Virus record (IMG/VR): IMGVR_UViG_3300031851_000017
Coordinates: 1 to 64,000 of that record
Direction: 5' to 3' (one strand)
DNA from: a virus
Length of the DNA: 64,000 nt
A program made the translations under genes and the position numbers. The notes beneath the pieces are model-generated. The model searched no databases and had not been told where the DNA came from. It saw only the letters and a program-made list of their open reading frames with translations. Positions 5,794 through 59,413 of the stretch are shown in pieces (position 1 is the stretch's first letter; the number at the start of each line of letters is the position of its first letter).

Positions 5794-6137
5794 TGAGTAA
5801 AAGATGGAAGAAAAGAGTTAATCAAAACAATAAAGATACAATGAAATTATCAGAATTAATAGCATTTATGATGAGTAAATATCCTATGACCGAAGAAGAA
5901 CACAACGCAATATTAAATTGGGAAGAGTTCAACATTAATATAGAAAGGCAGACTACAACAGAAGAACAAGCAAAGCAGACATTTTCAATAGAAGCGATTG
6001 CAGGTGTTACTGCTACCTTTCATCTTTGGCTCTTAGGAAGAGTAAAAGATAGGTGGGAATCAGAAGATTGGGATTTAGATAAAGCACCCCATGCTATTAC
6101 TGTTAATGCTAAAGTGGATTGGAGTAATGACATATGA
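5793..6137 (+). CDS. Hypothetical protein encoded between the two polymerase halves (114 aa)
   Basis: Its ATG overlaps the stop of the polymerase N-part (TAATG) and its stop overlaps the start of the C-part (ATGA), so all three genes are translationally coupled. The N-terminus is basic (S-K-R-W-K-K-R-V-N-Q-N-N-K); the remainder is helical with Trp-rich patches (L-N-W-E-E-F, R-W-E-S-E-D-W-D). It shows no intein signatures (no N-terminal Cys/Ser, no terminal H-N), no HNH or GIY-YIG motif and no zinc ligands. Function unknown. Its position makes a polymerase accessory subunit or a decayed mobile insertion possible. Confidence 0.75.
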   Translation: MSKRWKKRVNQNNKDTMKLSELIAFMMSKYPMTEEEHNAILNWEEFNINIERQTTTEEQAKQTFSIEAIAGVTATFHLWLLGRVKDRWESEDWDLDKAPHAITVNAKVDWSNDI

Positions 6138-7060
6138 AAGTAGTTTACGGACATACTGATTCAATTTATGTTCAGTGTGATGATATAGAAAAAGCAAAGA
6201 ACGTTTGTAGTGAAATTAACGACCATGTTAGGAAATCATTTCCTAATCTATTAGGTTTAGATGAACACCCTGTTACTTTAGAGTTTGAAAAGTATTACAA
6301 ATCACTAGGAGTAGGTGCAACAAAGAATAGAAATGCAGGTTTAATAACTTGGAAGGATGGAGAATATCTTGAAGAAGACGAGTTTGTTCTTACAGGTTTC
6401 TCTGCTAAAAGAGTTGCACAAACAAAACTAGCGAAGGAAACACAAATGAAAGTATTGCGAATGTGGGTTGATGGAGTTGAAGAAGAAGTAGTCTCTAGTT
6501 ACTTACATGGTTTATTTAATACTGTTATTTCCGGCGATATAGAATTATCAATGCTTACTAACAGAACTAGATTTCGTGAAGAAAGATTCAAGGTGAAATG
6601 TATGGGTGAATGTAAAAAAATGAAATGGGGAAAAGTTTTCTCACTATCAGAAATCATTGAGAATATTGCAGAACACCGCAGTAATTTTTCTAGCGATAAG
6701 TGGAAGTGTTGCAATAAACCTAATCTTAGAACATTACAAGATAAGAAACCCACAATCGGTTCGGGTATAGAAGGGGTATTGTATTACAACTCTTTTAATG
6801 AAGTGCAAATAGATGACTCTTATCTTTATATTAAAATTAAAGATAACACCACTACATACATACACCCACTTACACAAGAAGATACAATTCCTTCTTGGGT
6901 TTCAGTTAGACATGAATCAGAACTATCTCACTTTACTCCCGATTATTTACATTATGCTTATCAAGTAGTTAGTAAGGCAGAACCTATCTACAACGCAATG
7001 GGGTGGAATATAGATAATATTACTAAAAGTAGGAATCAAGATTTGGGGGATTGGTTTTGA
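6134..7060 (+). CDS. polB: Family B DNA polymerase, C-terminal part (motif C and thumb)
   Basis: 308 residues beginning M-K-V-V-Y-G-H-T-D-S-I-Y-V: motif C starts at residue 5, so the chain opens directly on the catalytic beta-hairpin. The second motif C Asp (D9) is kept and the first is His (Y-G-H-T-D-S instead of Y-G-D-T-D-S). Further thumb landmarks follow (L-E-F-E-K-Y-Y-K; L-T-G-F-S-A-K-R-V). Joined to the upstream half, the two chains give about 870 residues, the normal size for family B. Nothing appears lost at the break. Methanothermobacter PolB is a known naturally split relative. The start overlaps the preceding stop by ATGA. Confidence 0.95.
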   Translation: MKVVYGHTDSIYVQCDDIEKAKNVCSEINDHVRKSFPNLLGLDEHPVTLEFEKYYKSLGVGATKNRNAGLITWKDGEYLEEDEFVLTGFSAKRVAQTKLAKETQMKVLRMWVDGVEEEVVSSYLHGLFNTVISGDIELSMLTNRTRFREERFKVKCMGECKKMKWGKVFSLSEIIENIAEHRSNFSSDKWKCCNKPNLRTLQDKKPTIGSGIEGVLYYNSFNEVQIDDSYLYIKIKDNTTTYIHPLTQEDTIPSWVSVRHESELSHFTPDYLHYAYQVVSKAEPIYNAMGWNIDNITKSRNQDLGDWF

Positions 7061-45745: not shown

Positions 45746-47149
45746 TTAAGCACTCTTTAGGTTTGTAATTTTACCTTGTCCCTTGAAGAAAGAACAGCAA
45801 GTTTCTCCCATAGTACGGTACATTCCTTGATTTCCAAGTTTACCAACACCGAATGGGTTTCCACTAGTAATACCATCTTCGAAGTATTGTGTAGGTTTCA
45901 TTACAGATAGCCACAAGTGGTCAGTATCTAGAACTAATATATCACTAATTCTGTTAGATGTGGACTTACCTGTTGACGGCATATCTTTAGCAGGGATGAT
46001 TGGTATGTCATAGTATGTTGCAACTCTGAAACCAACTTCTTGACCCTTGACACCACGAACACCATTATGGGAAGGAACGATTTCTTTCCTATCCATAAAT
46101 CTCTCTTGTGATTGTAGTAAATCAGAGATTTTCTGAATGGTATCGTATCCTGTAATCATAACTTTAGGGTTTCCACCGTTAGTACGGATTCTTCTAATCA
46201 TATCATTAAGAATACTTAGTGTTAGAACCCTACATTCACCTGATGTATAACCTGCACCGAAATCAACTTCTGCATCTAGGAAAGAAGGAACACCTGTGTA
46301 GGTATAATTTCCACTTCCACCGGATGTGTTAACAGTAACAGTTCTAGTTGAACCAAAGATAGTAGTAGCATCAGCAAGTTGTGCTGCTGTACCGTTATTT
46401 GTTTGGTTGTGATAGAATACGTCATCGTCAGCCATAGTTGCAAGTTCAACCGCAGATGAAACTATCTTCATTAAAGAAGTATAGTTCTTCTCAATACCTG
46501 TTGTACCGTTCTCTGAGTATTTCTCAAGAGGCATAACTAACATTTTACTCTGAACTTCTGCGTGTAGTTTACCCATGTCTTCTCTAACGATAGCACGAAT
46601 ATCACCAACACCATCATCAATTGCAGCCATTTCCATTCCTAGTTCTGAGAACTCGAATAGATGTGCAATAGTCTTAGGGCTAACATATAGTTTAGTATAT
46701 TCAGGAGCAATTGCTCTGAAACCATCTGCACCACCTAATGTTGCGTTTTCTCCAACACCACCAATTTGGTCTGCTCTAGGAGTTGCTGCATCTGCTGATG
46801 AAATACTAGCGGTAACTGCATTAGTACCTGTACCGAATGCTGCATCACTACCACCAATAGGTCGTGATTTCAGAACTCTCCATCCACTAGATGTGTATGG
46901 TCTCTTAGCAAGCATTGCTAGAGGGTTTACTTCTTGGTTTAATACAGACCAAACTTTCTGTCCGTATAGTAGGTTGTACAAATCACCTAGACCTGCTGCA
47001 CCCGTAAATGCATTAGCACTAGTATCGTGAGGAGTACCGAAACCACCTACAACTCCACCTGCTTTAAGCAAGGCATTGCCGCTTCCTGTTCCGCCGTATC
47101 CGTATGTTGCTGCTTCTAAATCTTTCATTGTTTTAATATATCCACTCAT
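45746..47149 (-). CDS. HK97-fold major capsid protein
   Basis: 467 residues directly after the protease/scaffold gene, as in HK97-type modules. An N-terminal region (M-S-G-Y-I-K-T-M-K-D-L-E-A-A-T-Y-G) is followed by W-S-V-L-N-Q-E-V-N-P-L-A-M-L-A-K-R-P, an alpha/beta body with D-M-G-K-L-H-A-E-V-Q-S-K-M-L and R-V-A-T-Y-Y-D-I-P-I-I-P-A-K-D-M-P near the P- and A-domain ends, and a Cys-containing C-terminus. It forms the icosahedral shell. GGAAGTGA ribosome site and a strong hairpin after the stop fit high expression. Confidence 0.88.
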   Translation of the reverse strand: MSGYIKTMKDLEAATYGYGGTGSGNALLKAGGVVGGFGTPHDTSANAFTGAAGLGDLYNLLYGQKVWSVLNQEVNPLAMLAKRPYTSSGWRVLKSRPIGGSDAAFGTGTNAVTASISSADAATPRADQIGGVGENATLGGADGFRAIAPEYTKLYVSPKTIAHLFEFSELGMEMAAIDDGVGDIRAIVREDMGKLHAEVQSKMLVMPLEKYSENGTTGIEKNYTSLMKIVSSAVELATMADDDVFYHNQTNNGTAAQLADATTIFGSTRTVTVNTSGGSGNYTYTGVPSFLDAEVDFGAGYTSGECRVLTLSILNDMIRRIRTNGGNPKVMITGYDTIQKISDLLQSQERFMDRKEIVPSHNGVRGVKGQEVGFRVATYYDIPIIPAKDMPSTGKSTSNRISDILVLDTDHLWLSVMKPTQYFEDGITSGNPFGVGKLGNQGMYRTMGETCCSFFKGQGKITNLKSA

Positions 47150-47161
47150 AATTTCACTTCC

Positions 47162-48358
47162 TTAATTTCCCCTCACAAGAGAATGTACGTCATCCCAAGT
47201 CATATTGGCTGCTGCCTCTAAACTTGTAGGTATTCCTTCCGGTAATGCCATTGACATTTCCACACTTTTGCGAATTGTTGCGTCTTTCTCTGATAGAGAT
47301 TTTCGTAGTAGAGCAAATTCTTTCTTTAGTGCTGCTACATCTGTTCTAGCATCGTATGATGCGGATTGTGCTGCTGATTTCTTAACTGCAAGTTCTTCTG
47401 AAAGTCTTGCTCCAAATTGCTTAGAAAGATTATCGTATGCAATTTTTTCCATCTGCTCTGCTTTGAATTGTGCATATGCTTTCTCAACATTATCTGCACT
47501 TAGGTTAAGAGTACTAAAGTCAGCAGCATCTAAGCCTTCACTCTTTAGTTCAGTAGGTGGAGTTGTAGGATTACCGTTATCTACAACCAATGTCCCTGCT
47601 TCTGATGTTGTATTATCAATATCAAGAGCCTTCATTTCTTCTTCCTCTTCTTCTTCTTCTTCAGCCTTCATTTCTTCTTCCTCTTCTTCTTCCTCTTCCA
47701 TAGTAGCCATACTATATTGGGCGGTCTTCGTTACTTCGTCATATTTTTCTTCCTCTCCGAGTCCGTTAACTTGTTTCATCAAGTCATTCAACTCTTCGAG
47801 TGCTTTTTCCAATTTTTCACTCATTGTTTTATCCTCCATTTTTAAAATGTCGAATTTTGCTTCGGGATTAATACCCTTTTCACAGATAGTTACTTCATGT
47901 AACTCTAATCTGTCTATCTCATTATATTCACCAAACTCATCTGAGGTTCTTTGTTTCTTAGAAATCGCCTGACCTCCAATACTAAAAGAACGAAGAGTTC
48001 CTTTTCTAATACTTCTTGAAATTTCTTTTGCCTTTTCTATGTCATCTCTTAATTTAATAACAACATAAAACCCTACATCATCTACACCAGTTTTATGTAA
48101 AGTACCATTCATATCTCTATACTTCTCAATAACTTCTCCAACTTGTACATTAGAATGATTAGACATAACATTTCTATATTTCTTTTCAGACATATATTTT
48201 TCAACTGCTTCATCTAATGCCTTTAATGTAATTAAATCATTTTGCTTATCTACAATTTCTATTGAAGCATAGCCACCAATAATTAAATCATCAGACTTAA
48301 GAATAGTAAACTCATGCTCTTTATCCGCTTTGAATAAAAGAGATGGCTGCATAAGCAT
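47162..48358 (-). CDS. Prohead protease fused to scaffold
   Basis: 398 residues. The N-terminal 170 residues show the U35/HK97-type protease layout: I-G-G-Y-A-S-I-E-I-V-D-K-Q-N-D, a catalytic His candidate in M-S-N-H-S-N-V-Q-V-G, and G-T-L-R-S-F-S-I-G-G-Q as catalytic Ser region. The rest is a scaffold-like helical segment containing two nine-Glu tracts (E-E-E-E-E-E-E-E-E-M-K) and a long coiled-coil. The last residues, M-T-W-D-D-V-H-S-L-V, resemble the tag found at the start of twelve proteins upstream. The protease matures the capsid. No Shine-Dalgarno precedes the start; see the TATA box at 48381. Confidence 0.85.
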   Translation of the reverse strand: MLMQPSLLFKADKEHEFTILKSDDLIIGGYASIEIVDKQNDLITLKALDEAVEKYMSEKKYRNVMSNHSNVQVGEVIEKYRDMNGTLHKTGVDDVGFYVVIKLRDDIEKAKEISRSIRKGTLRSFSIGGQAISKKQRTSDEFGEYNEIDRLELHEVTICEKGINPEAKFDILKMEDKTMSEKLEKALEELNDLMKQVNGLGEEEKYDEVTKTAQYSMATMEEEEEEEEEMKAEEEEEEEEEMKALDIDNTTSEAGTLVVDNGNPTTPPTELKSEGLDAADFSTLNLSADNVEKAYAQFKAEQMEKIAYDNLSKQFGARLSEELAVKKSAAQSASYDARTDVAALKKEFALLRKSLSEKDATIRKSVEMSMALPEGIPTSLEAAANMTWDDVHSLVRGN

Positions 48359-48380
48359 TATTTTTTTGTCTTTTTACTTT

Positions 48381-48391
48381 TACTATATTAA
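48381..48391 (-). promoter_or_regulatory. TATA-box-like promoter of the protease-capsid genes, leaderless
   Basis: On the - strand TTAATATAGTA centres about 28 bases upstream of the protease ATG at 48358, the archaeal TATA-to-start distance, and no ribosome site lies between. This predicts a leaderless transcript starting near the ATG. It is one of the few late genes without Shine-Dalgarno. Confidence 0.5.
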
Positions 48392-48404
48392 GTAATCGCT
48401 ATTT

Positions 48405-51020
48405 TTAATTTGGTAATGTCAAATTAGCATATTTATCTTCTTGTATATTCCAAACATCTACTTCATTTCCATCTTTTAACATATCTTGTTTTTTACCCGT
48501 CCAAGCAACCCATCTTTTTTTCTCATTTAGAGGCACTACTCTTAGATGTAATCTAGTCTCAAACTTATCTCCCTCTAATTTGTATTCGTGATAACCGTCT
48601 TTTTGTACTCCTAGAATAATATCACCTTTATCTATGACCTTACCTGCAATTATTTTTTCTGCTACAATAGCAGGGTATTTTACAGATTTACCAAACAAAT
48701 TGTATATATCATCAGTATCTCCTATGTCAATTAACCAAGCAAATCTATTTTTTTTATAGTCTATAATTAAATTAATATTACCATCGTCTTGTCTATTTAT
48801 AGTAAACTTACCTTTTCTTGAATCTTCTTTTTGAATAATATTTTCATCAGTTTCCTTTTCTTCTTTATCTTTTTCTATGTAAGATTCATCAACAACAAAA
48901 ACTTGGGGGTCTTCTTTATCTAAAAATTCAACAGAATCTTGTTGTTTTAACCAACCTGTTAATTTTTTAGGATTACCATCAATCCAACCCGCCCATGCTT
49001 TATTGTGCTTAGTTTGCACAAATTGAACTATTTCTTCTGAGGTTAATTTTTCATTCGGACTATCCGCTATCTCGTTCTTTATCGCTATTCTTAATTCAGA
49101 CCTACTGTGTTTTATTAATTTAGATATTTCTTCTTTCCATAAATCAATGTTATAAAGAGCATTTTTCTCCATTAAATTATCGCCATCAAAACCATAGATA
49201 GTAAACCCATCTAAATCTTCCTTTAATATGATTTCAGCAGTACCGTGTATATCATCTGTAATGTAATATCCCTTTTTAATTTTTTTAGGTTTAAGTAAAT
49301 TAGATTCTAACCCACTCATAACTCTAAATGGAGCAGATACAGCAGAACCAATTAGATTATTTATTGCACTAGATAATGATTTTTTACTTTTAGATGCTAA
49401 TTTTTCCAAAGTAGCAATATTATCTGATTGTGTTACTTCGGGTATTTCTATCACTTTAGCAGAATACAAACTGAATCCATTTTTTTTCTTTGTTACTTCA
49501 TCAACTTTAACTCTAACAATAGAGCCTATGTCAACATTTATTTTTGTGTTGAGAGCCTTACCAACTTCTAAATATGCCTTATCTTCATAATCAACAGTTG
49601 CATAATTTCTAGAAACTTCTGCCGTAACAGCACCAATACCCATAGTGTAGGAATATAAATTGCTTTTTGTTTTTCTTTTATTTAACACAACTACATCTAA
49701 ATCAACAAACTTCTTCCACTTAACCCATTTTGGGTTTTTCCTATTCCCTATGTAATAAGTAGATTCAATATCTTTTATAACAACACCTTCTGACGCAGGT
49801 AATTTCATAATATCCTTTGAATACTCTTCCACTTCTTTCTTAGAGTCTGCTATTCTAGTGTCTTTTTTAGAAGGAAACGCCATCTGTTCAGAAGAATGCT
49901 GTGCGTATTGATATAATAAAATATTAATTCTTTCTCTAAGTGGAGAATCTGTTATGTCTTTACCTTCATGTACCATGATATCAAAAACGTGTGCTTTCAG
50001 ACTACCCTTTGTTTTCTTATGAAATACATGAGTAATAGTATCTGCTCTATGAAGGGGTTCATCACCTAAAAATAACATTAATTCAGCATCTAATATACAA
50101 TCGCCAAATTGTTTTTTCTCCATATGTTTTACTTGTTCGGGACATTTAGAAGTAATGTCTTTTTGATTAAATGAATAAATCTTAACTTTACCATTAAACT
50201 TGTGTATCTGTATTCTCATCCCGTCATATTTTTCTTGTACTACAAACTCTCCGGTTAGTCCCTTAATTTCATCTAAATCGTCTATTTCAAAAATACGATA
50301 CATTGGTTTATTTGGTCTAATAAAATCTATTTCTGCTTTCTCTTCCATTGATTTAGAAATATCTAATTCTAATAATGCGTCCCAATCTTCATCATCATAT
50401 TTTTCCAAATAAATATTTTCTAATTTTTTAAATGCTTCTTTACATTTTGTTTCTATTCTTTCAGTATTGTCATCAGAACTACCATAGTGTTCTATAATGT
50501 AAATAGGCACATCTTTGGGTTCTAAATCTAAACCCATATATCCTTGTGTAATTTCATCGGGTTTCAAACCATGTGCTTTCCAAGACTTTTCGGGTATTGG
50601 GTTTGTGTGGGAACGTACTGCATAATGAATAAACGATAATAACACAGATTCATTTTCTAAGAGTACTTTAATTACATCATCACCTAACTGTTTAGAAAAA
50701 GGGTCGCTAATTTTATCTGACTTAAATCTAAGTTCTTTAACACTATCATAGATTTCTTTTGCTTGTCTAGAATTGGGGTCATAGGCTTCGTTAGAAAAAG
50801 CAACTTTTTCTTTTAAATAGGTTTTTAATTCTCTAGAAAAATCATCTAAAGAATCAAATTGGTCTCTAACTTCTTTGACAGTTTGCTTCCATTTTTCTCC
50901 ATATTCAGAAGGACTTTCTTTTGCAGAAAGATAAGAATATCTAACTCTTTCAAAGAAATCTAAAACTCTTTTAGTTAAAGGTGTTTTTTTCTTTTCAAAG
51001 AAAAGTCCTGTTTGTGGCAT
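48405..51020 (-). CDS. lig: ATP-dependent DNA ligase with long C-terminal extension
   Basis: 871 residues. Motif I is E-K264-Y-D-G-M-R269 (adenylated Lys264), then D311-A-E313, F-D-I (motif IIIa region), E411-G-V-V-I-K416 (motif IV) and K-W-V-K-W-K436 (motif V). The 260 residues before motif I correspond to the DNA-binding domain of archaeal ligases. After the OB domain (to about 540) come about 330 residues of unknown type, rich in charged helices and a final beta-rich section (G-V-Q-K-D-G-Y-H-E-Y-K-L-E-G-D). Archaeal ligases are normally 550-620 residues. It is placed in the structural block rather than with replication genes, which may reflect late expression. Confidence 0.9.
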   Translation of the reverse strand: MPQTGLFFEKKKTPLTKRVLDFFERVRYSYLSAKESPSEYGEKWKQTVKEVRDQFDSLDDFSRELKTYLKEKVAFSNEAYDPNSRQAKEIYDSVKELRFKSDKISDPFSKQLGDDVIKVLLENESVLLSFIHYAVRSHTNPIPEKSWKAHGLKPDEITQGYMGLDLEPKDVPIYIIEHYGSSDDNTERIETKCKEAFKKLENIYLEKYDDEDWDALLELDISKSMEEKAEIDFIRPNKPMYRIFEIDDLDEIKGLTGEFVVQEKYDGMRIQIHKFNGKVKIYSFNQKDITSKCPEQVKHMEKKQFGDCILDAELMLFLGDEPLHRADTITHVFHKKTKGSLKAHVFDIMVHEGKDITDSPLRERINILLYQYAQHSSEQMAFPSKKDTRIADSKKEVEEYSKDIMKLPASEGVVIKDIESTYYIGNRKNPKWVKWKKFVDLDVVVLNKRKTKSNLYSYTMGIGAVTAEVSRNYATVDYEDKAYLEVGKALNTKINVDIGSIVRVKVDEVTKKKNGFSLYSAKVIEIPEVTQSDNIATLEKLASKSKKSLSSAINNLIGSAVSAPFRVMSGLESNLLKPKKIKKGYYITDDIHGTAEIILKEDLDGFTIYGFDGDNLMEKNALYNIDLWKEEISKLIKHSRSELRIAIKNEIADSPNEKLTSEEIVQFVQTKHNKAWAGWIDGNPKKLTGWLKQQDSVEFLDKEDPQVFVVDESYIEKDKEEKETDENIIQKEDSRKGKFTINRQDDGNINLIIDYKKNRFAWLIDIGDTDDIYNLFGKSVKYPAIVAEKIIAGKVIDKGDIILGVQKDGYHEYKLEGDKFETRLHLRVVPLNEKKRWVAWTGKKQDMLKDGNEVDVWNIQEDKYANLTLPN

Positions 51021-51030
51021 ACTACCTCAC

Positions 51031-51246
51031 TCAGTTGGAATCTTTCTTTTCTTTTCCTTCGATGTTACTAGTTTTAGGTAATTGTACTTCTGATGGATTT
51101 TTCTTTGGCCTTTTTACTTTAACTTCTTCGCCTGTTAGTGGTTCATCTATTTCCATTGTATTTACATTAGCCTCTTGTAAAACTTCCTTTGCTTTAGCAA
51201 TTACTAGTTCTAATAATTTTTCTTTTTTTGTTACTCTTTCCGGCAT
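51031..51246 (-). CDS. Hypothetical protein (71 aa)
   Basis: Helical N-terminal half (M-P-E-R-V-T-K-K-E-K-L-L-E-L-V-I-A-K-A-K) and a Lys/Pro/Glu-rich, probably disordered C-terminal half. The start ATG 51246 has GGGGG seven bases upstream; TTG 51252 is too close to that site. Located between a tagged protein and ligase. It lacks the M-S-W tag. Confidence 0.55.
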   Translation of the reverse strand: MPERVTKKEKLLELVIAKAKEVLQEANVNTMEIDEPLTGEEVKVKRPKKNPSEVQLPKTSNIEGKEKKDSN

Positions 51247-51248
51247 AT

Positions 51249-51593
51249 TCAAGCCCCCGCTACTCTATCAAAAGATTGTCCTTCTCTTCTAAAATTTCCA
51301 TCTATATCCATTTGAAAGTAGATAATATCTTCTCCGTTTTCATCTTTAACATCAACATACAAACCACCTGCTTTTTCATCGGGGTCAAGACTCAATGATA
51401 TGTCTAATATTTTTCCTAATCCCTCTAATTCATTACCATCATTAATACTACGTTGCAACTCCGCTAAATTTTCTTCGGTATAATCGCCTTCATCAAATAT
51501 ATTGTCGTTTAAAAATCTTTCAACTTCTTTTTCTAACATATTAATAAACCCTGCATCTATTTCGATTCTTTTTAATATATTTTTCCAACTCAT
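51249..51593 (-). CDS. MSW-tagged protein 12 (114 aa)
   Basis: Starts M-S-W-K-N-I-L-K-R-I, the shared tag. The frame continues 15 codons upstream, but GGAGAGATAGAT before ATG 51593 and the tag fix this start. After the tag: an acidic, mostly helical protein (F-I-N-M-L-E-K-E-V-E-R-F; D-K-A-G-G-L-Y-V-D-V-K-D). No enzyme motifs. Confidence 0.7.
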   Translation of the reverse strand: MSWKNILKRIEIDAGFINMLEKEVERFLNDNIFDEGDYTEENLAELQRSINDGNELEGLGKILDISLSLDPDEKAGGLYVDVKDENGEDIIYFQMDIDGNFRREGQSFDRVAGA

Positions 51594-51595
51594 AT

Positions 51596-51811
51596 CTATC
51601 TCTCCATCGTAGTTACTAATTCGTGTATGTCTTCCCAAGCCATACTCTTTTTAATAGTATTATTATTTTCCATCATCGGTGAAGGTGATTCAACTACAAC
51701 TAATCCTGATTTCATAAGTAAATTATCTTTATGATAAACCGCCTCTTCTAAATGTTTCACCTTGTTCACTAATTCTTTCAATAACATTAACATTTCATTA
51801 TCTTCACTCAT
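51596..51811 (-). CDS. Small protein with C-terminal tag-like motif (71 aa)
   Basis: N-terminal helix (E-D-N-E-M-L-M-L-L-K-E-L-V-N-K-V-K-H-L), a Pro/Asn-rich linker and then M-A-W-E-D-I-H-E-L-V-T-T-M-E-R at the C-terminus, which matches the protease/scaffold end M-T-W-D-D-V-H-S-L-V. GGGGG ribosome site. It could be a small scaffold partner displaying the same docking peptide. Confidence 0.65.
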   Translation of the reverse strand: MSEDNEMLMLLKELVNKVKHLEEAVYHKDNLLMKSGLVVVESPSPMMENNNTIKKSMAWEDIHELVTTMER

Positions 51812-51884: not shown

Positions 51885-52033
51885 CTCTTACTCACCATCT
51901 CATCAACCGCTTGTTTTAAATCATTTATAATTGTTCTAAGTTTAGTTCTAAAAGCAAGAGGGATTTCCATTGTGCTTATAGTTTCTATAATGGCTTTCAA
52001 TGTTTGAATTGTTCGTTGGTCGTATTTTGTCAT
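51881..52033 (-). CDS. Small helical protein (50 aa)
   Basis: ATGA overlap with the upstream tagged gene, GGTGATTTAGA before the ATG. M-T-K-Y-D-Q-R-T-I-Q-T-L-K-A-I-I-E-T, two helices separated by I-P-L-A. The upstream sequence is that of the tag cassette, but the coding start is M-T-K and not M-S-W. Function unknown. Confidence 0.55.
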   Translation of the reverse strand: MTKYDQRTIQTLKAIIETISTMEIPLAFRTKLRTIINDLKQAVDEMVSKR

Positions 52034-52368
52034 TCTAAATCACCTTTCATAAGTAGTTCAAATCCTTGTTTTTTTAATTTTTTATATGCTTCTAATGGCT
52101 TATTCATAGAAAGCCACATAATCATAGATGCAACTTCTGCATTAACAGTGTTACCTTTCAGTTTCATTGTGTATTTGCCTTCATTTGAGTAAGCATCCTC
52201 AACAATTTTTTTAAATTCTTCAAACCTCATATGTATTTTGACTTCTTTGTTACCATACTTGTCGAACATAGCCTCAAAATTATTTGGTTCATCTTCTTTA
52301 GACAATGAAGGGAAATGGCTTTCATCATATCGTTTCATGTCTATTTTTATTATATCTTCCCAACTCAT
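52030..52368 (-). CDS. MSW-tagged protein 11 (112 aa)
   Basis: Begins M-S-W-E-D-I-I-K-I-D. ATG 52368 has GGGGGAGAAAT as ribosome site and overlaps the stop of the upstream zinc protein (ATGA); an upstream extension (8 codons) lies in that gene. The remainder is helical and acidic, ending M-K-G-D-L-E, residues encoded by the next gene's ribosome site. No known domain. Confidence 0.7.
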   Translation of the reverse strand: MSWEDIIKIDMKRYDESHFPSLSKEDEPNNFEAMFDKYGNKEVKIHMRFEEFKKIVEDAYSNEGKYTMKLKGNTVNAEVASMIMWLSMNKPLEAYKKLKKQGFELLMKGDLE

Positions 52369-52523
52369 ATTTCTCCCCCACACACAACACAACGGTGTCC
52401 ATCTCCTTTACCATTTTTACCTTCTATAAAATCCATTTCTTTTCCACAACAATGCGGAACTCCATTTTTAATATGAGGCACTTTCTTCCTACGTTCTTCT
52501 TTTAGTATATCTTCCCAACTCAT
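52365..52523 (-). CDS. MSW-tagged zinc-ribbon protein 10 (52 aa)
   Basis: Starts M-S-W-E-D-I-L-K-E-E, then a basic stretch (R-R-K-K-V-P) and a compact knuckle: H-C-C-G-K-E-M ... H-R-C-V-V-C-G-G, giving paired cysteines for zinc. The only cargo in the cluster with an obvious metal site, and one of the smallest. Translation is coupled to the next gene by ATGA. Confidence 0.72.
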   Translation of the reverse strand: MSWEDILKEERRKKVPHIKNGVPHCCGKEMDFIEGKNGKGDGHRCVVCGGEI

Positions 52524-52536
52524 TTTAAATCACCTT

Positions 52537-53100
52537 TCATTCATTCACTCTCCTTAATAATCCAGCACTATCAAAGACGAGATGTGCGAAGGGGTATTTA
52601 TTTTGTAAGTCCTCTAAAGACTCACCATTACTTATCCCTGCTTTAAAGGCAGATAGTTCTCTAGAATCTTTGTAATCAGTAAATGGGTTTTCATAATATT
52701 GGTCTGTGAAGTCATCCATTAGAGAAACCACTTGTGCATTTTTATTTCCTCTTTTTGGAGAAGTATAACCATCATCATCCTCATCATCTTTCAATTCAGT
52801 ATAGACAGATATGATTGATTGATATAAGTCCTCATATTCTTCATCGTCAACCGAAGTATTTTGATATCGTTTTATGTCTTTTGACAGTCTACTTATCTTA
52901 TCATTCTTGTCCTTTACATATTCAAGCATCTTTTCACATATGTCGTATAGTTCTTGGTCAACTTCTAACAGTTCCTCTTTTTTGTAAACATAGGTTTCTT
53001 CTAGGCTGTGTAACTTTTGAAGAAGGTCAAACATTTCTTTAGGTAGAATCTTTTCCTCACCAATTGTCATATATATTTTTATTACGTCAAACCAACTCAT
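52537..53100 (-). CDS. MSW-tagged protein 9 (187 aa)
   Basis: Begins M-S-W-F-D-V-I-K-I-Y. Long helical segments follow (L-L-Q-K-L-H-S-L-E-E-T-Y-V-Y-K-K-E-E-L-L), then a Asp/Glu-rich linker and a C-terminal region F-K-A-G-I-S-N-G-E-S-L-E-D-L-Q-N-K-Y-P-F-A-H. No family seen. GAGTGATTTAGA ribosome site. Confidence 0.72.
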   Translation of the reverse strand: MSWFDVIKIYMTIGEEKILPKEMFDLLQKLHSLEETYVYKKEELLEVDQELYDICEKMLEYVKDKNDKISRLSKDIKRYQNTSVDDEEYEDLYQSIISVYTELKDDEDDDGYTSPKRGNKNAQVVSLMDDFTDQYYENPFTDYKDSRELSAFKAGISNGESLEDLQNKYPFAHLVFDSAGLLRRVNE

Positions 53101-53116
53101 TCTAAATCACTCCACA

Positions 53117-53386
53117 TTACCTAATCTGACTTTTATTGATACCTACACCTCTGACGGTGAATTTCTCTGTCTCTCTAGGTCTATCTTTTGTTCCCATTAG
53201 ACATCTAACAAAAATAGGCAGGTCAAAACCAAGAACAGGTTGTGAGGAAGAGGAATAAATAACGTCGGATTTAACACCAAACTTCTCATCTATCATTTTC
53301 ATGATATCTTCTAAATTCCCCTCTTCTCCTATCAGTTCCTCTAACTCTGCCATTACATCTTTCTTTAGTATATCTTCCCAACTCAT
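53117..53386 (-). CDS. MSW-tagged protein 8 (89 aa)
   Basis: Tag M-S-W-E-D-I-L-K-K-D. GGAGAG before ATG 53386 fixes the start; the frame runs 7 codons further upstream. The body has V-M-A-E-L-E-E-L-I-G-E-E-G-N-L-E-D-I and a short beta-rich C-terminal section (P-V-L-G-F-D-L-P-I-F-V-R-C-L-M-G). Function unknown. Confidence 0.7.
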   Translation of the reverse strand: MSWEDILKKDVMAELEELIGEEGNLEDIMKMIDEKFGVKSDVIYSSSSQPVLGFDLPIFVRCLMGTKDRPRETEKFTVRGVGINKSQIR

Positions 53387-53387
53387 T

Positions 53388-53657
53388 TTAATCTCTCCGC
53401 ATTTCAAATTGCATATCTTCTAAGCGTTGTTCATATTCATTTCTTTCTTCTTGGGCAGTTTCTTCTCTATCTTTCTGATTCATTACATTACGTGGTTGTT
53501 CTTTTCCTGAAGAATTAACCATGTCCTGTATCTCTCTTCGTTCTTTGGTCTTTTGCCTTTCATTAGTAAAAGAAACCGGACTACCATTTACCTTTCTATT
53601 CAGACTTAATTTTTTTCTTGTCGTATTTTTTCTTTTAACAATGTCAAACCAACTCAT
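53388..53657 (-). CDS. MSW-tagged protein 7 (89 aa)
   Basis: Tag M-S-W-F-D-I-V-K-R-K followed by an extremely polar, basic-acidic sequence (N-T-T-R-K-K-L-S-L-N; R-E-I-Q-D-M; E-E-R-N-E-Y-E-Q-R-L-E-D-M) lacking a hydrophobic core, probably disordered. GGTGATTTAGA ribosome site. This strongly suggests that the tag itself carries the localisation information. Confidence 0.68.
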   Translation of the reverse strand: MSWFDIVKRKNTTRKKLSLNRKVNGSPVSFTNERQKTKERREIQDMVNSSGKEQPRNVMNQKDREETAQEERNEYEQRLEDMQFEMRRD

Positions 53658-53663
53658 TCTAAA

Positions 53664-53978
53664 TCACCTTCTACCGTAATTCTCAAACACTTCTTCTTCA
53701 TCATCTAACGCATTTCTTAATTTTACAATATAAGAATAAAAGTCTATATTATCTAATATTACATATATTTCCTCGGCAACGCTATGAAATAATTCACTTC
53801 TTGGTATTTTTTCATAAGTGGCAGGTTCATTTGCTTTAGGTTTACTATCTATGAACTCTTTTAATATTTTCCTATGTTTATCCATATCCGAACTAAGCCT
53901 ATTGATGTAGTCGTGTAATTCGTGAGAATAGACTATTTTCTCACTTCTATCTTTTTTTACTATATCTTCCCAACTCAT
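53664..53978 (-). CDS. MSW-tagged protein 6 (104 aa)
   Basis: Tag M-S-W-E-D-I-V-K-K-D. Helical body (Y-I-N-R-L-S-S-D-M-D-K-H-R-K-I-L; I-Y-V-I-L-D-N-I-D-F-Y-S-Y-I-V-K-L). Start overlaps the upstream stop (ATGA); GGTGATTTAGA ribosome site. No known family. Confidence 0.7.
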   Translation of the reverse strand: MSWEDIVKKDRSEKIVYSHELHDYINRLSSDMDKHRKILKEFIDSKPKANEPATYEKIPRSELFHSVAEEIYVILDNIDFYSYIVKLRNALDDEEEVFENYGRR

Positions 53979-54244
53979 TCTAAATCACCATAATACCCAT
54001 TTCGGAAACCTTTTCCTTTGTTGAGTAATTCAATCCACGCCATTCTCAAATCATCTTCCCTCGTAATTGCATTTGTTAATTGAGTTAGTTTTTCGTCTTG
54101 TTGTTCTTTAGGTAACTTCATAATTTCAGTAACATTTGTCAAGACATACTGGGCATTTTTTATATTATTGCCTACCATGTATCTTGCGAACTCATCTACA
54201 TCCCTAAACATATATTCTTTCTTTAGTATATCTTTCCAACTCAT
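53975..54244 (-). CDS. MSW-tagged protein 5 (89 aa)
   Basis: Tag M-S-W-K-D-I-L-K-K-E. Helical body with V-D-E-F-A-R-Y-M-V-G and L-T-N-A-I-T-R-E-D-D-L-R-M-A-W-I-E-L-L-N-K, ending G-Y-Y-G-D-L-E, whose last four residues come from the next gene's ribosome site. ATGA coupling to both neighbours. Confidence 0.7.
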   Translation of the reverse strand: MSWKDILKKEYMFRDVDEFARYMVGNNIKNAQYVLTNVTEIMKLPKEQQDEKLTQLTNAITREDDLRMAWIELLNKGKGFRNGYYGDLE

Positions 54245-54567
54245 TCTAAATCACCCTTACTTTTTGGATAAACTAAGTCTCGTATTTGACGATACAACGT
54301 TTCGTAATCTTTTCTAAGTTCTGCTGCCGATGAAACTATTTCTAGATTCTTTTCATCAAAGCCCTCGAACTTTTTTTGAAGTCTTTTATCAGACTTAATT
54401 AAGTCTAATTTTTTCATCTCATCTAACAGGTCTGAAAGATGTGTCATCTCTTGACCCATGTATTCAGTAGGCTGAGTTTTTTGAAGAAGTTTCTTAAGTT
54501 TCTTCTTTTGTTTAGAATCAACTTTTTCTAAAATTGAAGGTGATTTTAGTATTTCCTTCCAACCCAT
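54241..54567 (-). CDS. MSW-tagged protein 4 (108 aa, variant tag)
   Basis: Tag is M-G-W-K-E-I-L-K-S-P, with Gly for Ser and Glu for Asp. The start at ATG 54567 is chosen because it aligns with the other tags; TTG 54573 adds M-S. The body is Lys-rich helical (K-K-L-K-K-L-L-Q-K-T; L-S-D-L-L-D-E-M-K-K-L) and ends in S-K-G-D-L-E. Probably the degenerate copy of the cassette. Confidence 0.66.
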   Translation of the reverse strand: MGWKEILKSPSILEKVDSKQKKKLKKLLQKTQPTEYMGQEMTHLSDLLDEMKKLDLIKSDKRLQKKFEGFDEKNLEIVSSAAELRKDYETLYRQIRDLVYPKSKGDLE

Positions 54568-54616: not shown

Positions 54617-56827
54617 TTATTTTAACTGATTACGGTCATTGAACTCAGTATATTCATATTCAGATTCATCTGTATCTGTAATATCATTCCCTTTAGGTTC
54701 ATCTGTTTTATTACTAAGGAAACCATCTACCCTTTTCGCAAAAGTATTAATTTTATTGGTAATGTTACTGAGTTCTCTTCTAACAGTATTTGCATTCCTT
54801 AAAGCAAGAACCGCCCATTTTTGTTTATCTAAATCTGAGTTCTGTTTTACTAATTTATTTAAAAAATTACTTTTTAATAACACATAGTTTAGTATTTCAG
54901 AATTATTAATTTCGGAAGTGCTATCTTCATCATATTTAGGCAAAGAAGTTTCTTTCTCTTTAAATTTTTCACCACTTGATTCTTCAATTATTTCAAACTT
55001 TAATGCAAAATCTATCCATAACTTTTCAATTTCTTCTTTGTTTTTTCTTAAAAGATTAAATCTATTTCTTTCAATTGCTCCCATATCGTCTTCCGACCGT
55101 TCTCTAGAAATTGTAGTTTTTTGGTCTAAAAATGGGTTATTGGGGTTTTTTGATTGGCCTTCAAAATGTTGACTAACGTTCCTATCTACTAATTTTCTTT
55201 TACCATCTTTATCTTTTACACTTCCTTTTGGTGTAATAGTTAATTTTTTTTCTATTTCTTTAAATACATTTGTTACACTATTAAAAAGATATTTTCTTTT
55301 TTCGTTTATTTTCAAGCCCCGTACTTTACTTTCATAATCATCTAAAAGTTCACTACTTCCTTCTTGTTCTTCACTACCAGATTCTAATTCTCTTGCAATA
55401 TTACTTAACATTTGTTTGAACTCACTTACTGAAAATGTCTCTCCCTTAATAGAAAACGTATTATTACTTAAAGAATCGAAATTGACTTCATCTCTATTTG
55501 TAAGTGAAGTAGCGGCTACAAAAACCACACCTAAACTATTAGCAATATCCCTATGTTTCTGTAAATCAGAAATATCTCTTCTAGTGTCATTATAAATATT
55601 TACTATTGATGGTTTTAAATTAAAACCTTTAGTTTCTAATATAATTTTTGTAAAATGCAAGACTTCGTGATTTTGTTTTGCTTTTTTCAGAGAAATATTA
55701 ATTTGATATATCATATTTTGTTTCATTTGTATAGCCTTTTCATCATCAGTATCAAGAGGACTTAACATTTCAACAATTTCAGTTATTTCGTCTACTAGGT
55801 GATTTGTGTCTTCCATTATCTCATATGCAAGGGTTAGTAAATCTTCTTTAGTAAGTTCAGTTTTATCTGTAACTGCCCCACCAAGAACAGTTAATATACC
55901 CTCTATTTGGTCTTTAAAATCCATATCATTCTTATTATCACTATACAAATTCATCATTTCTCTAATGTTATTAAAATATTCTTGGGTATCTAAATTTAAA
56001 TATTCTATTAATCTTTTACTGCCCTTATACGTTTTAATATCATCTTCGACTTCTATTCCAAGTTTATCGAATATATTATTTAAAATGTCCCTTGACGGTT
56101 TATTACCATATATTTTGAATTGGTTTAACCAACCACCTACCTTTGAATAAAATGCCCCTTCTTCTACTAACAATTTTCTTAAATTGGGAGAAATGTCCTT
56201 TCTGCCTTTGAAAAAATCGTTAATTGAATTATATAAATCAAATATTAATTTAACTTCATCATCATTGTCTCTATCAACATCACCATTTTCTAAAATAACC
56301 TTAAGTTTTTCTTCTATTTCTTCCGCTTCAGTAGGTAAAGGAGTATCAAGAACTTTTTCTATTTTAGTAAAAAAATTAGGTTTTTCTTTTGTTCCAAAAA
56401 ATAATTTATGTACTTTAGGATATTTCTCTTCGGAATATTTTTTCTTAAGGTAATAAATAGCAGATTCTAAATTAAGTAAAGTCCTTATTTCATCTGTCCG
56501 TCCAGTAGATTCTAATACAACTTCTGTTAGGTCATCTTTTGTTTTAATGTTTTTACTCTTTTTCTTTGTAGCAAGTATTTCTGTTGTACCGCCAGCGCCC
56601 TCAAAAAGACCATCAAATATTATTTCTTGTCCTAAACCATTTTTTTCATTGGATTCTTTTTTCTTATCTTCCCGAACTAAATCATTATATTTTTTTTCTA
56701 AAGTCCTTATTTCGTTAATAGTAATATTATGAATCTCTCTTCTATTCTTAAATAATACGCTTAATATTTTACCCCAATCTTTTTGTGCCTTCATAATATC
56801 TTTTTTTAAAATATCCATAAACGACAC
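54617..56827 (-). CDS. Large MSW-tagged protein 3 (736 aa)
   Basis: GTG start; tag (M)-S-F-M-D-I-L-K-K-D with Phe for Trp. A long helical, charged chain with no enzyme motif recognised. Around residues 552-570 it contains H-F-E-G-Q-S-K-N-P-N-N-P-F-L-D-Q-K, shared almost word for word with the 1,198-residue protein at 38,568. The composition (Lys/Glu/Asp/Asn, coiled-coil) resembles that protein and the one at 62,211. The largest cargo of the tag family; candidate internal head or ejection protein. Confidence 0.72.
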   Translation of the reverse strand: MSFMDILKKDIMKAQKDWGKILSVLFKNRREIHNITINEIRTLEKKYNDLVREDKKKESNEKNGLGQEIIFDGLFEGAGGTTEILATKKKSKNIKTKDDLTEVVLESTGRTDEIRTLLNLESAIYYLKKKYSEEKYPKVHKLFFGTKEKPNFFTKIEKVLDTPLPTEAEEIEEKLKVILENGDVDRDNDDEVKLIFDLYNSINDFFKGRKDISPNLRKLLVEEGAFYSKVGGWLNQFKIYGNKPSRDILNNIFDKLGIEVEDDIKTYKGSKRLIEYLNLDTQEYFNNIREMMNLYSDNKNDMDFKDQIEGILTVLGGAVTDKTELTKEDLLTLAYEIMEDTNHLVDEITEIVEMLSPLDTDDEKAIQMKQNMIYQINISLKKAKQNHEVLHFTKIILETKGFNLKPSIVNIYNDTRRDISDLQKHRDIANSLGVVFVAATSLTNRDEVNFDSLSNNTFSIKGETFSVSEFKQMLSNIARELESGSEEQEGSSELLDDYESKVRGLKINEKRKYLFNSVTNVFKEIEKKLTITPKGSVKDKDGKRKLVDRNVSQHFEGQSKNPNNPFLDQKTTISRERSEDDMGAIERNRFNLLRKNKEEIEKLWIDFALKFEIIEESSGEKFKEKETSLPKYDEDSTSEINNSEILNYVLLKSNFLNKLVKQNSDLDKQKWAVLALRNANTVRRELSNITNKINTFAKRVDGFLSNKTDEPKGNDITDTDESEYEYTEFNDRNQLK

Positions 56828-56840
56828 AATCTAACCCCCC

Positions 56841-57071
56841 TTAAAATGGTATATTTTCACTACGCATATTCTTTCTTTTAGGTGTTATCATAACATCGGG
56901 AATATTACTAGGTGCATCATCTGTTTTATTTTTCAATGTTGTACTTGGGTCAATCCCTACAACAGAATAGTCCCTACTAATAGTAACATTTTTCTTTTGT
57001 TCCGCACCTTCTTTTATTCTCGCTTGTTTTAACTCTCTTTCTAATTGCCTTACACTTTTTTCTTCACTCAT
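56841..57071 (-). CDS. Hypothetical protein (76 aa)
   Basis: Helical N-terminal half (V-R-Q-L-E-R-E-L-K-Q-A-R-I-K-E-G-A) and a polar C-terminal half ending R-S-E-N-I-P-F. No M-S-W tag though it lies inside the cluster; AGAGGTGA ribosome site. The start overlaps the upstream tagged gene by ATGA. Confidence 0.55.
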   Translation of the reverse strand: MSEEKSVRQLERELKQARIKEGAEQKKNVTISRDYSVVGIDPSTTLKNKTDDAPSNIPDVMITPKRKNMRSENIPF

Positions 57072-57475
57072 TTTCTTTCACCTCTTGCCTTTTCATTTTT
57101 AGCCTTCCATCGTGCTAATAATTCCGCTTCGTTTTCTTCTGTTCTTTTAGCGGCTTCTGCATCTTGCCCTGTGGAAGTTTTAGTTGCTATTAATTCATTA
57201 GCATGATATAATTTAACACTATTTTCATTATGTGGGTTTTCTGTCATTAAAGTGCCATCGGGCATCTTATGTGTTTTACCTTCCCATAATTTACCATCTT
57301 TAGTATAATGTCGAACACCCTGTTCTTTTGTCATTTCATCTAATTCCGGTTCTAAAAAACTTTTTTCATTTTCTCTTCTTCTAGAAGTTGAGTCTTTGGG
57401 GGACTTGTAACCTCTGCCTCGCAATCCTGTTCCCTTTCTTTTGCCCGTTCTTTTTATTACATTAAACCAACTCAT
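57068..57475 (-). CDS. MSW-tagged protein 2 (135 aa)
   Basis: Tag M-S-W-F-N-V-I-K-R-T, then a very basic stretch (G-K-R-K-G-T-G-L-R-G-R-G-Y-K) and a region H-K-M-P-D-G-T-L-M-T-E-N-P-H-N-E-N-S-V-K-L-Y-H of a type seen in several phage structural proteins (M-P-D-G-x-x-M ... N-S-x-x-L-Y-H). C-terminal helix rich in Glu/Arg. It may bind DNA or capsid. Confidence 0.68.
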   Translation of the reverse strand: MSWFNVIKRTGKRKGTGLRGRGYKSPKDSTSRRRENEKSFLEPELDEMTKEQGVRHYTKDGKLWEGKTHKMPDGTLMTENPHNENSVKLYHANELIATKTSTGQDAEAAKRTEENEAELLARWKAKNEKARGERK

Positions 57476-57550: not shown

Positions 57551-57754
57551 TTACTCACTTAATTCCGCTTTGACCCAATCGAACTCATCTTCTACATTAT
57601 ATTTACGAAGTTTGGCTTGTATGTTATTCCAACTCGCCCCGAAGTCTAATAGTTTTTTTGTATATTCTAAAACACTTCGTTTTCGATTACCATAATCTAT
57701 CCATTTTGGATAAGCAAACGATGGTTCAAATTTTAACATTTCAAACCAAGCCAT
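57551..57754 (-). CDS. MSW-tagged protein 1 (67 aa)
   Basis: Tag variant M-A-W-F-E-M-L-K-F-E directly after the portal gene, with GGAGAG upstream. The remainder is helical and basic (R-K-R-S-V-L-E-Y-T-K-K-L-L; W-N-N-I-Q-A-K-L-R-K-Y). First in transcription order of the tagged genes. Function unknown. Confidence 0.68.
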   Translation of the reverse strand: MAWFEMLKFEPSFAYPKWIDYGNRKRSVLEYTKKLLDFGASWNNIQAKLRKYNVEDEFDWVKAELSE

Positions 57755-59413
57755 TTAACCTACTCTCCTTTCTGTTCGCTTGTCATTGTTTTCATTACCT
57801 GCTTCTCTTGGTAAACCCTTAAATCTTTTATCGGGAGCATTAAACATACTAGGTTTGTTTCTTTTTTTAGGTGGTTCTGATTTAACCTTTTCGGGAACAC
57901 CTGCCTCTGCCATTGTTGGTTTATTTCCTTCTGCCATCATTTGACCTAACTGACTAGCATCAATATCCGTACCCGCGTAAGGGTCAAGTTCAAACTCATC
58001 TCCTTTACCCTGTTGTTTTTCTTTTTCTTCCATAGGTTTATCATAAGTAAACCTGCCTTCTGAATCCATCTTTACTTCAAATCCTAAGTTCTTTATTGCA
58101 CCTGCAATATTAACTTCCATCTCTCTTAATCTTAATTTAGCAATTTCATCTTCTTCCTCTGATGGTGGAAGTTTTAGAACCCAATCTGTTATTCCAAATT
58201 CGGTTGTAATAAAAGGAAATACATAATTATTCCAAGTAGTCTGCGCCATTTCTACTGCTCTATTAGTAACAAGTATTTGCATACCTTCGTTATTTAATCC
58301 ACCGCCCGCAGAAGCGTCATTCATAAACACTTTACTTACACCATAAAAAGCAGAAATTCTATCTCGTAAATCATCTTTTACTGCTACATATTCCATTTCT
58401 TTTAGGCTATCCATGAACCTAACCCATTCAACAGAACCCTTTCCTGTTTCAGATTCAATTCCCATTACAGGTATGAAGTGTGGGTCTTGTTCCATCTTTT
58501 CTTTAACACCACGCCAAAATGATTTCATAGATTCCATATTTCTAGTTTGAACAGCCAATAATCCCTTCGGCATTCTTGCCTTAGTATATGATGAGTTTAC
58601 ATAATTATCCATTGCGATTAAAGTAGTAACATTATTCCACAATGTAATTATTGGTGACATACCATATAATCGAGAAGGAGAGTATTTACTAAAATGAACA
58701 ACTTCCCCTTTGATAAAATACTGTTCCTCCCCATTGACTCTATTAACATAATGAATCGGGTATAGTTCAGAGTTACACACTTCACAAGTTTCAGTTTCGT
58801 GTTCATGCACTCTGTTTCTATGACGCAAACAAACATATCCACCTTTACCTCTCTCTCCTAATTCGTTAGAATAAATGTGCATAGTAACAGGGTCGCCTCT
58901 AAAAACTTCTTTTATTCGGTGCATTCTAACTTTACAATTATTATCTAAATAATATTCCTTAACTGTAACTAAATACGCATCGTCCATTATATTCAAGTCA
59001 TCTTCTAATTCCTTCAAAACATCTATGAACATTTGGTCTGCTTTATTTACATATCCGCCTAAAAACTTTTTAGCATATTCTAATTGTTTAGAATCCGGCT
59101 TAATTAAATTAGTAGATTCACAATCACTACACTGTAAAACAGGATTAGAATGTTCCTTTTCACAGTCGCTACATTTCAAGGCAAACTTTTCTTCCCACTT
59201 ATATCCCCTCCTAAACACCTCTTGTTTAAGTTGAGTTATACACGTTCTAACAATAGTAGATTGCTGCACTATATGATAAATAATAGGACTTGTTAACAAA
59301 TAAGAATTGTCTCTTTCTTGTATTCCTAAATTAAACACCGTTCTATCTGCGGGTTTTGGGGTAGTATTTCTAAATAAATTAGTAAATGAAAATCTTCTTT
59401 TTTCTTCTACCAT
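57755..59413 (-). CDS. Portal protein with inserted zinc knuckles
   Basis: 552 residues. The portal fold is indicated by the S-P-I-I-Y-H-I-V-Q-Q-S-T-I-V-R-T start of the core, K-G-E-V-V-H-F-S-K-Y-S-P-S-R-L-Y-G-M-S-P-I (typical P-S-x-x-Y-G-x-S-P), the clip and wing, F-Y-G-V-S-K-V-F-M-N, and a disordered, Lys/Pro-rich C-terminus. Unusual are two Cys sets: C81/C84/C95/C98 and C195/H198/C210/C213, each a full zinc ribbon or knuckle, in the wing region. It forms the dodecameric DNA channel. GGGGTGAT ribosome site. Confidence 0.9.
   Translation of the reverse strand: MVEEKRRFSFTNLFRNTTPKPADRTVFNLGIQERDNSYLLTSPIIYHIVQQSTIVRTCITQLKQEVFRRGYKWEEKFALKCSDCEKEHSNPVLQCSDCESTNLIKPDSKQLEYAKKFLGGYVNKADQMFIDVLKELEDDLNIMDDAYLVTVKEYYLDNNCKVRMHRIKEVFRGDPVTMHIYSNELGERGKGGYVCLRHRNRVHEHETETCEVCNSELYPIHYVNRVNGEEQYFIKGEVVHFSKYSPSRLYGMSPIITLWNNVTTLIAMDNYVNSSYTKARMPKGLLAVQTRNMESMKSFWRGVKEKMEQDPHFIPVMGIESETGKGSVEWVRFMDSLKEMEYVAVKDDLRDRISAFYGVSKVFMNDASAGGGLNNEGMQILVTNRAVEMAQTTWNNYVFPFITTEFGITDWVLKLPPSEEEDEIAKLRLREMEVNIAGAIKNLGFEVKMDSEGRFTYDKPMEEKEKQQGKGDEFELDPYAGTDIDASQLGQMMAEGNKPTMAEAGVPEKVKSEPPKKRNKPSMFNAPDKRFKGLPREAGNENNDKRTERRVG

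Follow-up and report, generated by a model that had tools for sequence, protein, structure and literature searches.

A tryptophan-centred motif at scaffold C-termini and a similar N-terminal tag on late proteins of putative marine archaeal viruses

Introduction

The capsid-targeting sequences (CTSs) of phage T4 are present on the internal proteins IPI–IPIII and on Alt and are removed as peptides by the prohead protease; the first ten residues of IPIII are required and sufficient for the packaging of foreign proteins (PMC9026906). In phage P1, the N-terminal 30 residues of DarB suffice to package a reporter, and the N-termini of the Dar proteins have no consensus (PMC9024508). Short C-terminal sequences have been described for the binding of scaffolds to capsid proteins. 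The SaPI1 protein CpmB, a helical protein of 72 residues, has a C-terminal motif (RIIK) in common with the 80alpha scaffold and, as set out in the relevant passages of PMC5644958, the two proteins compete for one site on the capsid protein via their last 16 residues. The P22 scaffold binds coat through its C-terminal helical region (PMC9962691). A sequence-only reading of the locus analysed here started from the premise that scaffold C-termini bind the capsid protein, for which 80alpha/SaPI1 (PMC5644958) and P22 (PMC9962691) provide the general precedent, and proposed that N-terminal tags of other proteins mimic the docking peptide of the scaffold.

Genome organization and relatives

The stretch of DNA that was analysed (the window) covers 64 kb out of a 66-kb uncultivated virus record. 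Its plus-strand half carries archaeal-style replication genes (clamp-loader-like, PolB and ERCC4-type genes), and its minus-strand half carries the late genes, namely those for terminase, portal, a run of small proteins, an ATP-dependent DNA ligase-domain protein, a prohead protease fused to a scaffold, the major capsid protein and tail proteins. By capsid protein, the nearest named relatives are the haloarchaeal Druskaviridae, at 23–30% identity, and the gene content of the window appears to fit the magroviruses of marine group II archaea. For these marine archaeal tailed viruses, the relevant passages of PMC10160649 describe genes for PolB, DNA ligase, an ERCC4 nuclease, portal, terminase, capsid and a prohead serine protease, all of which the window has in common with them; the same passages make no mention of tags or scaffold motifs. 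The family B DNA polymerase (4093-7060) is encoded in two ORFs, 4093-5793 and 6134-7060, separated upstream of the YGHTDS motif by a 114-aa ORF (5793-6137), and a 99-kb relative has the same split arrangement.

Relatives came from three IMG/VR searches with capsid proteins and from a profile search that started from a haloviral one; together these yielded 220 loci, or 113 after the removal of duplicates. Two members of this archaeal virus group, L232 and L233 (NZMJ01000101.1 and NZMJ01000024.1), are contigs in a MAG labelled as the bacterium Maricaulis sp.; the host assignment was rejected, as it probably reflects binning contamination. The head genes and motifs on which the comparison rests are the following:

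45746..47149, minus strand: major capsid protein, HK97 fold by family (Pfam SU10_MCP, E=4.7e-10; PHROG major head protein), candidate docking partner
47162..48358, minus strand: 398-aa fusion of a prohead protease (Peptidase_S78; Pfam PF04586, E=2.6e-10, residues 26-175; PHROG head maturation protease) with an acidic coiled-coil scaffold domain
47174..47203, minus strand: C-terminal motif M-T-W-D-D-V-H-S-L-V of the protease/scaffold (sequence; kept in relatives)
51596..51811, minus strand: 71-aa protein, likely a small accessory scaffold (40-row alignment; AF2 helices 3-34 and 59-70)
51614..51643, minus strand: C-terminal motif M-A-W-E-D-I-H-E-L-V of the 71-aa protein (sequence and alignment; predicted C-terminal helix starting at W59)
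57755..59413, minus strand: portal protein (PHROG portal, E=5.9e-68)

C-terminal motifs of the protease/scaffold and the 71-aa protein

The protease/scaffold has an HK97-type layout, in which the Peptidase_S78 domain is followed by an acidic, coiled-coil-like region (judged by eye) and the gene lies directly upstream of the capsid gene, an order that relatives keep. Its C-terminal end, MTWDDVHSLVRGN, and that of the 71-aa protein, MAWEDIHELVTTMER, are exactly those that had been read from the sequence, coordinates included. The motif then proposed, W-[DE]-D-[IV], is present at both C-termini, but the true motif is longer, roughly M-x-W-x-[DE]-[IVLA]-H-x-[LIMF]-V. At the scaffold C-terminus it is a conserved property: it was found in all 80 first-round loci and is kept in relatives with capsid proteins ~50-100% identical. 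One clade has A in place of H (LSWNEIADIARKYN), and in a divergent marine clade, with capsid proteins ~50% identical, the scaffold C-terminus reads M[ST]W-x-E-[AI]-H. The W is invariant in the C-terminal alignments of both the scaffold and the 71-aa protein, and the scaffold tail looks helical from its sequence.

For the 71-aa protein, AF2 predicts a long N-terminal helix, a flexible or disordered linker and a C-terminal helix that starts at W59; M57 and W59 are invariant, and the same C-terminus is present in ~40 loci. In the relative L233, the two C-termini have ten identical residues in common, MDWSDIHKMV. Covariation of the two motifs, judged by eye, is seen in L232, where N replaces H in both, and most loci have none. 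Among PDB sequences, the profile of the 71-aa protein matched no phage scaffold; such matches as there were, up to E=1, were weak and coiled-coil-like. The 71-aa protein is likely a small accessory scaffold. It resembles CpmB in size, in predicted layout and in a C-terminus common with the scaffold. However, the motif is M-x-W-x-[DE]-I-H and not RIIK, and neither an RIIK hook nor sequence homology to CpmB was found; moreover, CpmB belongs to a parasite and redirects capsid size, whereas the 71-aa protein is the virus's own. The short Trp motif also differs from the coat-binding domain of the P22 scaffold, a helix-turn-helix with basic residues.

N-terminal tags on late proteins

Between the portal gene on one side and the protease and capsid genes on the other, 12 genes of the window begin with an MSWEDILK-type sequence, in one case with F for W:

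51249..51593, minus strand: tagged protein MSWKNILKR
52030..52368, minus strand: tagged protein MSWEDIIKI
52365..52523, minus strand: tagged protein MSWEDILKE
52537..53100, minus strand: tagged protein MSWFDVIKI
53117..53386, minus strand: tagged protein MSWEDILKK
53388..53657, minus strand: tagged protein MSWFDIVKR
53664..53978, minus strand: tagged protein MSWEDIVKK
53975..54244, minus strand: tagged protein MSWKDILKK
54241..54567, minus strand: tagged protein MGWKEILKS, resembling a conserved tagged family (45 members, ~109 aa)
54617..56827, minus strand: 736-aa protein with a GTG start and, as a variant tag, MSFMDILKK (F for W)
57068..57475, minus strand: tagged protein MSWFNVIKR
57551..57754, minus strand: tagged protein MAWFEMLK

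Across the 113 loci there are 196 tagged genes, with the consensus M-S-W-x-D-I-L-K. A degenerate tag pattern, applied to 21 whole records, gave 144 matches and a reversed control none, and the matches are confined to one strand in all but one of these records. With a stricter core, 185 of 191 matches lie within the first 16 residues and six elsewhere, a count in which the choice of start codons favoured tags. The tags of the 99-kb relative are located in two late-gene clusters, between or beside the portal, terminase and capsid genes; its early replication genes contain no convincing tag.

As with the T4 CTSs, the short N-terminal sequence is common to otherwise unrelated proteins. The non-redundant set comprises 133 tagged proteins; an alignment of 114 has a mean column identity of 4%, and only M1, W3 and K8 are nearly invariant. 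Pfam assigned the 114 proteins to eight sparse families, mostly of unknown function, without revealing a common function, and the PHROG matches of tagged proteins are likewise mostly of unknown function. The tag is modular, as a tagged protein of 102 aa (L011:946-1251) illustrates: it consists of MTDWFEILKKKG and a domain, and its match at 61% identity, gp37 of Celeribacter phage P12053L, begins only after the tag. Other tagged proteins carry small Cys-containing basic domains that are present also in cyanomyoviruses, where neighbouring genes start with MKSFKQFQES or MKSYNEFISES, sequences that we take to resemble T4-type CTSs. A striking case of sharing between archaeal and cyanobacterial viruses is found in two tagged small basic proteins (L186:15937-16170 and L191:9566-9781), whose KWPSAYASGALV-CRK-GA-NWGN segment is ~83% identical to a stretch within large proteins of cyanomyoviruses (T4-GC 119 in Syn19).

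The ~109-aa tagged family (54241-54567 in the window; 45 members) is nearly universal in the window's clade, and the divergent clade has at this position a longer protein that lacks the tag but is similar at its C-terminus; this family is possibly a core head protein and not cargo. Tag-like sequences also occur internally, as KKSWE[DE]MLVKDWV, 79 residues before the protein end, in L061 and L047 and as KSWQNILVKDWG in a longer protein of L198. These look like the outcome of fusions that placed a tagged cargo gene behind another gene, and they suggest that a free N-terminus may be dispensable for the tag.

The tag could in principle be a nucleotide-level feature, either a translation-initiation element or a spreading ribosome-site cassette, since Ser2 is almost always encoded by AGT (105 tags), compared with ~29% of Ser codons elsewhere in these ORFs. 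However, untagged genes, the capsid gene included, also start with ATGAGT, a GGTGAT-type upstream site is present in untagged genes too, and the core occurs at C-termini as well. The codons for D, I, L and K of the tag vary, so that selection acts on the protein. We rejected the DNA-level explanation, which we regard as highly improbable.

How alike are tags and C-terminal motifs

In a six-frame scan of the 64 kb (open frames of at least 40 codons), W-[DE]-D-[IVL] occurs six times, in four N-terminal tags and the two C-termini. The resemblance exceeds what chance would give. A weight matrix for M S W x D I, built from 127 non-redundant tags, was used to scan 469,774 non-N-terminal windows; the best 50 all lie at most 25 residues from a C-terminus, as do 92 of the best 100. 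When the start Met was left out (S W x D I), C-terminal windows made up 27 of the top 50 and 67 of the top 100. Because homologues inflate these counts, the ORFs were clustered by BLAST, which gave 72 families with at least five members. W-x-[DEN]-phi is present in the last 22 residues of at least 60% of the members in only three of the 72, which are the protease/scaffold (83 members), the 71-aa protein (50) and a sister-lineage scaffold (6).

The likeness has limits. The start Met is trivially shared, and Ser2 of the tags is partly the general ATGAGT start context, so the true overlap of tags and C-termini is the core W-x-acidic-hydrophobic. The tags read W-x-[DEN]-[IV]-[LI]-K and the C-termini W-x-[DE]-[IVLA]-[H/N/D/A]-x-phi-V: the fourth residue after W is L, I, V, F or M in 196 of 196 tags and H, N, D or A (polar, rarely Ala) in all C-termini, and Lys8 of the tags (179 of 196) is not conserved in the C-termini. 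The earlier claim that the C-termini copy the core of the tags is thus upheld for W-x-[DE]-phi only, as the sequences part at the fourth residue after W. This difference past the core could mean different partners.

Co-occurrence and lineages

Among tagged loci with a readable scaffold, all 62 have the C-terminal motif, and none of 30 motif-less loci has MSW-type tags. A tagged virus with a scaffold that lacks the motif was looked for among the loci with a readable scaffold and was not found for the MSW tag. Fifteen such loci have the C-terminal motif and no tags in the stretch examined, several of these stretches being partial. Since the loci are related, the co-occurrence may reflect few evolutionary events. 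The haloviruses have neither the C-terminal motif nor tags. In the sister lineage the scaffold ends in a W core although MSW tags are absent, a pattern suggesting that the tags arose after the scaffold motif.

Some loci of this lineage (L162, L163, L166, L167, L171 and L199) carry an N-terminal repeat of their own, MS[FY]NQ[HQT]xGxTNN, on three to six adjacent genes immediately upstream of the one for the scaffold (for example L163:6717-8796 and L166:6403-9272). No copy of this sequence is present at the sister-lineage scaffold C-terminus, so tagging may have arisen more than once and scaffold mimicry is not required for it. For the proposal that tags mimic the scaffold's docking peptide, the outcome is partial support: the motif is conserved and co-occurs with tags, but the MS[FY]NQ tags do not match their scaffold. 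One MS[FY]NQ-tagged protein has a CWENYEMVGTK...VPNC domain like one in cyanomyovirus proteins. In a Druskaviridae virus (L142:56, 4476, 8590 and 8701; genes 113, 115 and 116 of halovirus HVTV-1), the segment RVYVDSPDEAPEGVQVQQG... is repeated in several head-region proteins and is possibly another shared module.

These comparisons bear on the possibility that the tags and the C-terminal motif are unrelated, the latter being an ordinary scaffold anchor and the former having a different late function, for example in association with the membrane or the portal, so that W-x-[DE]-phi would be coincidental. Without the start Met and Ser2, all that is left in common is a W plus one acidic and one hydrophobic residue, the two sets split cleanly at the residue after the core, and the MSFNQ lineage has tags that do not match its scaffold. 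Against this, the C-terminal core is conserved only in scaffold-type families and the small protein among the 72 families, more than half of the 50 top-scoring S-W-x-D-I windows lie at C-termini, and tags and motif co-occur. We consider a coincidence unlikely.

Proposed scaffold anchoring and cargo loading

Our preferred explanation, which on balance we hold to be probable, is that the C-terminus of the protease/scaffold forms a short amphipathic helix from the invariant Trp and would anchor the scaffold inside the procapsid, most likely by contacting the major capsid protein on its inner face. As a small accessory scaffold, the 71-aa protein would hold on by this anchor too, much as CpmB uses the one of the 80alpha scaffold. 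The W-x-[DE]-phi core would likewise underlie the N-terminal tags, which would act as capsid-targeting sequences and recruit many unrelated small proteins to the head as it assembles; the protease would subsequently clear the scaffold, and DNA would be packaged. The parts of this explanation differ in strength. The sequences, their conservation and co-occurrence, the position of the tags among late genes and their modularity are observations. That the tag is a packaging signal is quite likely, and docking of the scaffold C-terminus on the capsid protein seems reasonably probable. Binding of tags and C-termini to the same or an overlapping site is a more tentative suggestion. AF2 modelling of an in-frame read-through of the scaffold tail joined to the capsid protein (59 rows) returned a pTM of 0.22 and a mean pLDDT of 44.6, values too low for the model to count as evidence.

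Tags and T4 CTSs are alike in comprising ~10 N-terminal residues on diverse, poorly conserved proteins, and in both cases the set of cargo varies between relatives. They differ in sequence, and the tagged genes per genome are more numerous here. The P1 DarB signal is N-terminal as well, but the Dar N-termini lack a consensus, in contrast to the strict consensus on unrelated proteins here. The relevant passages of the CpmB/80alpha work mention no N-terminal cargo tags with the motif (PMC5644958).

The main rival, and a serious option even though we rate it as rather unlikely, is that the tags are capsid-targeting sequences that bind the scaffold or core, as in T4, and that the C-terminal copies mark the scaffold and the small protein for co-assembly, for example on a shared hub. 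In T4, the internal proteins co-purify with the scaffold gp22 and are directed to the core by their propeptides (PMC9026906). Docking on the scaffold or core would also agree with the predicted helices of the small protein and with a scaffold tail that seems helical by sequence, and the divergence of tags and C-termini past the core makes two surfaces possible. However, the termini of the T4 core proteins gp21, gp22, gp67 and gp68 carry no evident CTS copy, whereas here scaffold and cargo have a common core. A motif common to scaffold and cargo suggests a common partner and not mutual binding.

Another possibility is that the prohead protease recognizes or cuts at the motif, which it would carry on its own C-terminus and which would be present on its substrates and clipped in maturation. 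One C-terminal copy does sit on the protease itself, the T4 prohead protease removes the CTS peptides (PMC9026906), and Lys8 is a feature of the tags and not of the C-termini. On the other hand, no residue past the tag is conserved, and the T4-type site [LI]xE is not enriched after the tags (0.018 versus 0.020 per position), although the S78 protease may differ in specificity; docking is, in addition, compatible with cleavage. We find a pure protease signal improbable, and return to scaffold anchoring on the capsid protein, with the tags as capsid-targeting sequences, as our working explanation.

Conclusions

We tentatively suggest that one short linear motif serves as an address code for the procapsid, C-terminal on the scaffold and a mini-scaffold and, in a derived N-terminal form, on a large and fast-changing accessory set. 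About eight codons might then turn any gene product into virion cargo, for which delivery into the host is plausible; on this view the ancestral form would be that of the scaffold, and the tags later mimics of it. No paper matching MSWEDIL-type tags was found in the open literature searched and we know of no natural cargo that copies the C-terminus of the P22 scaffold. A capsid-targeting peptide and a mimic of a scaffold anchor are each known, and their combination and scale are, as far as we found, unreported.

If correct, a simple pattern would list the proteins that abundant uncultivated viruses of marine archaea package in the virion and probably inject, among them 196 tagged genes whose functions are nearly all unknown. 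The tag provides a testable peptide for docking and packaging assays, and the small protein is a candidate accessory, possibly size-setting, scaffold in archaeal tailed viruses. The loading of cargo by imitation of the scaffold's own anchor would then be a natural strategy of these viruses.
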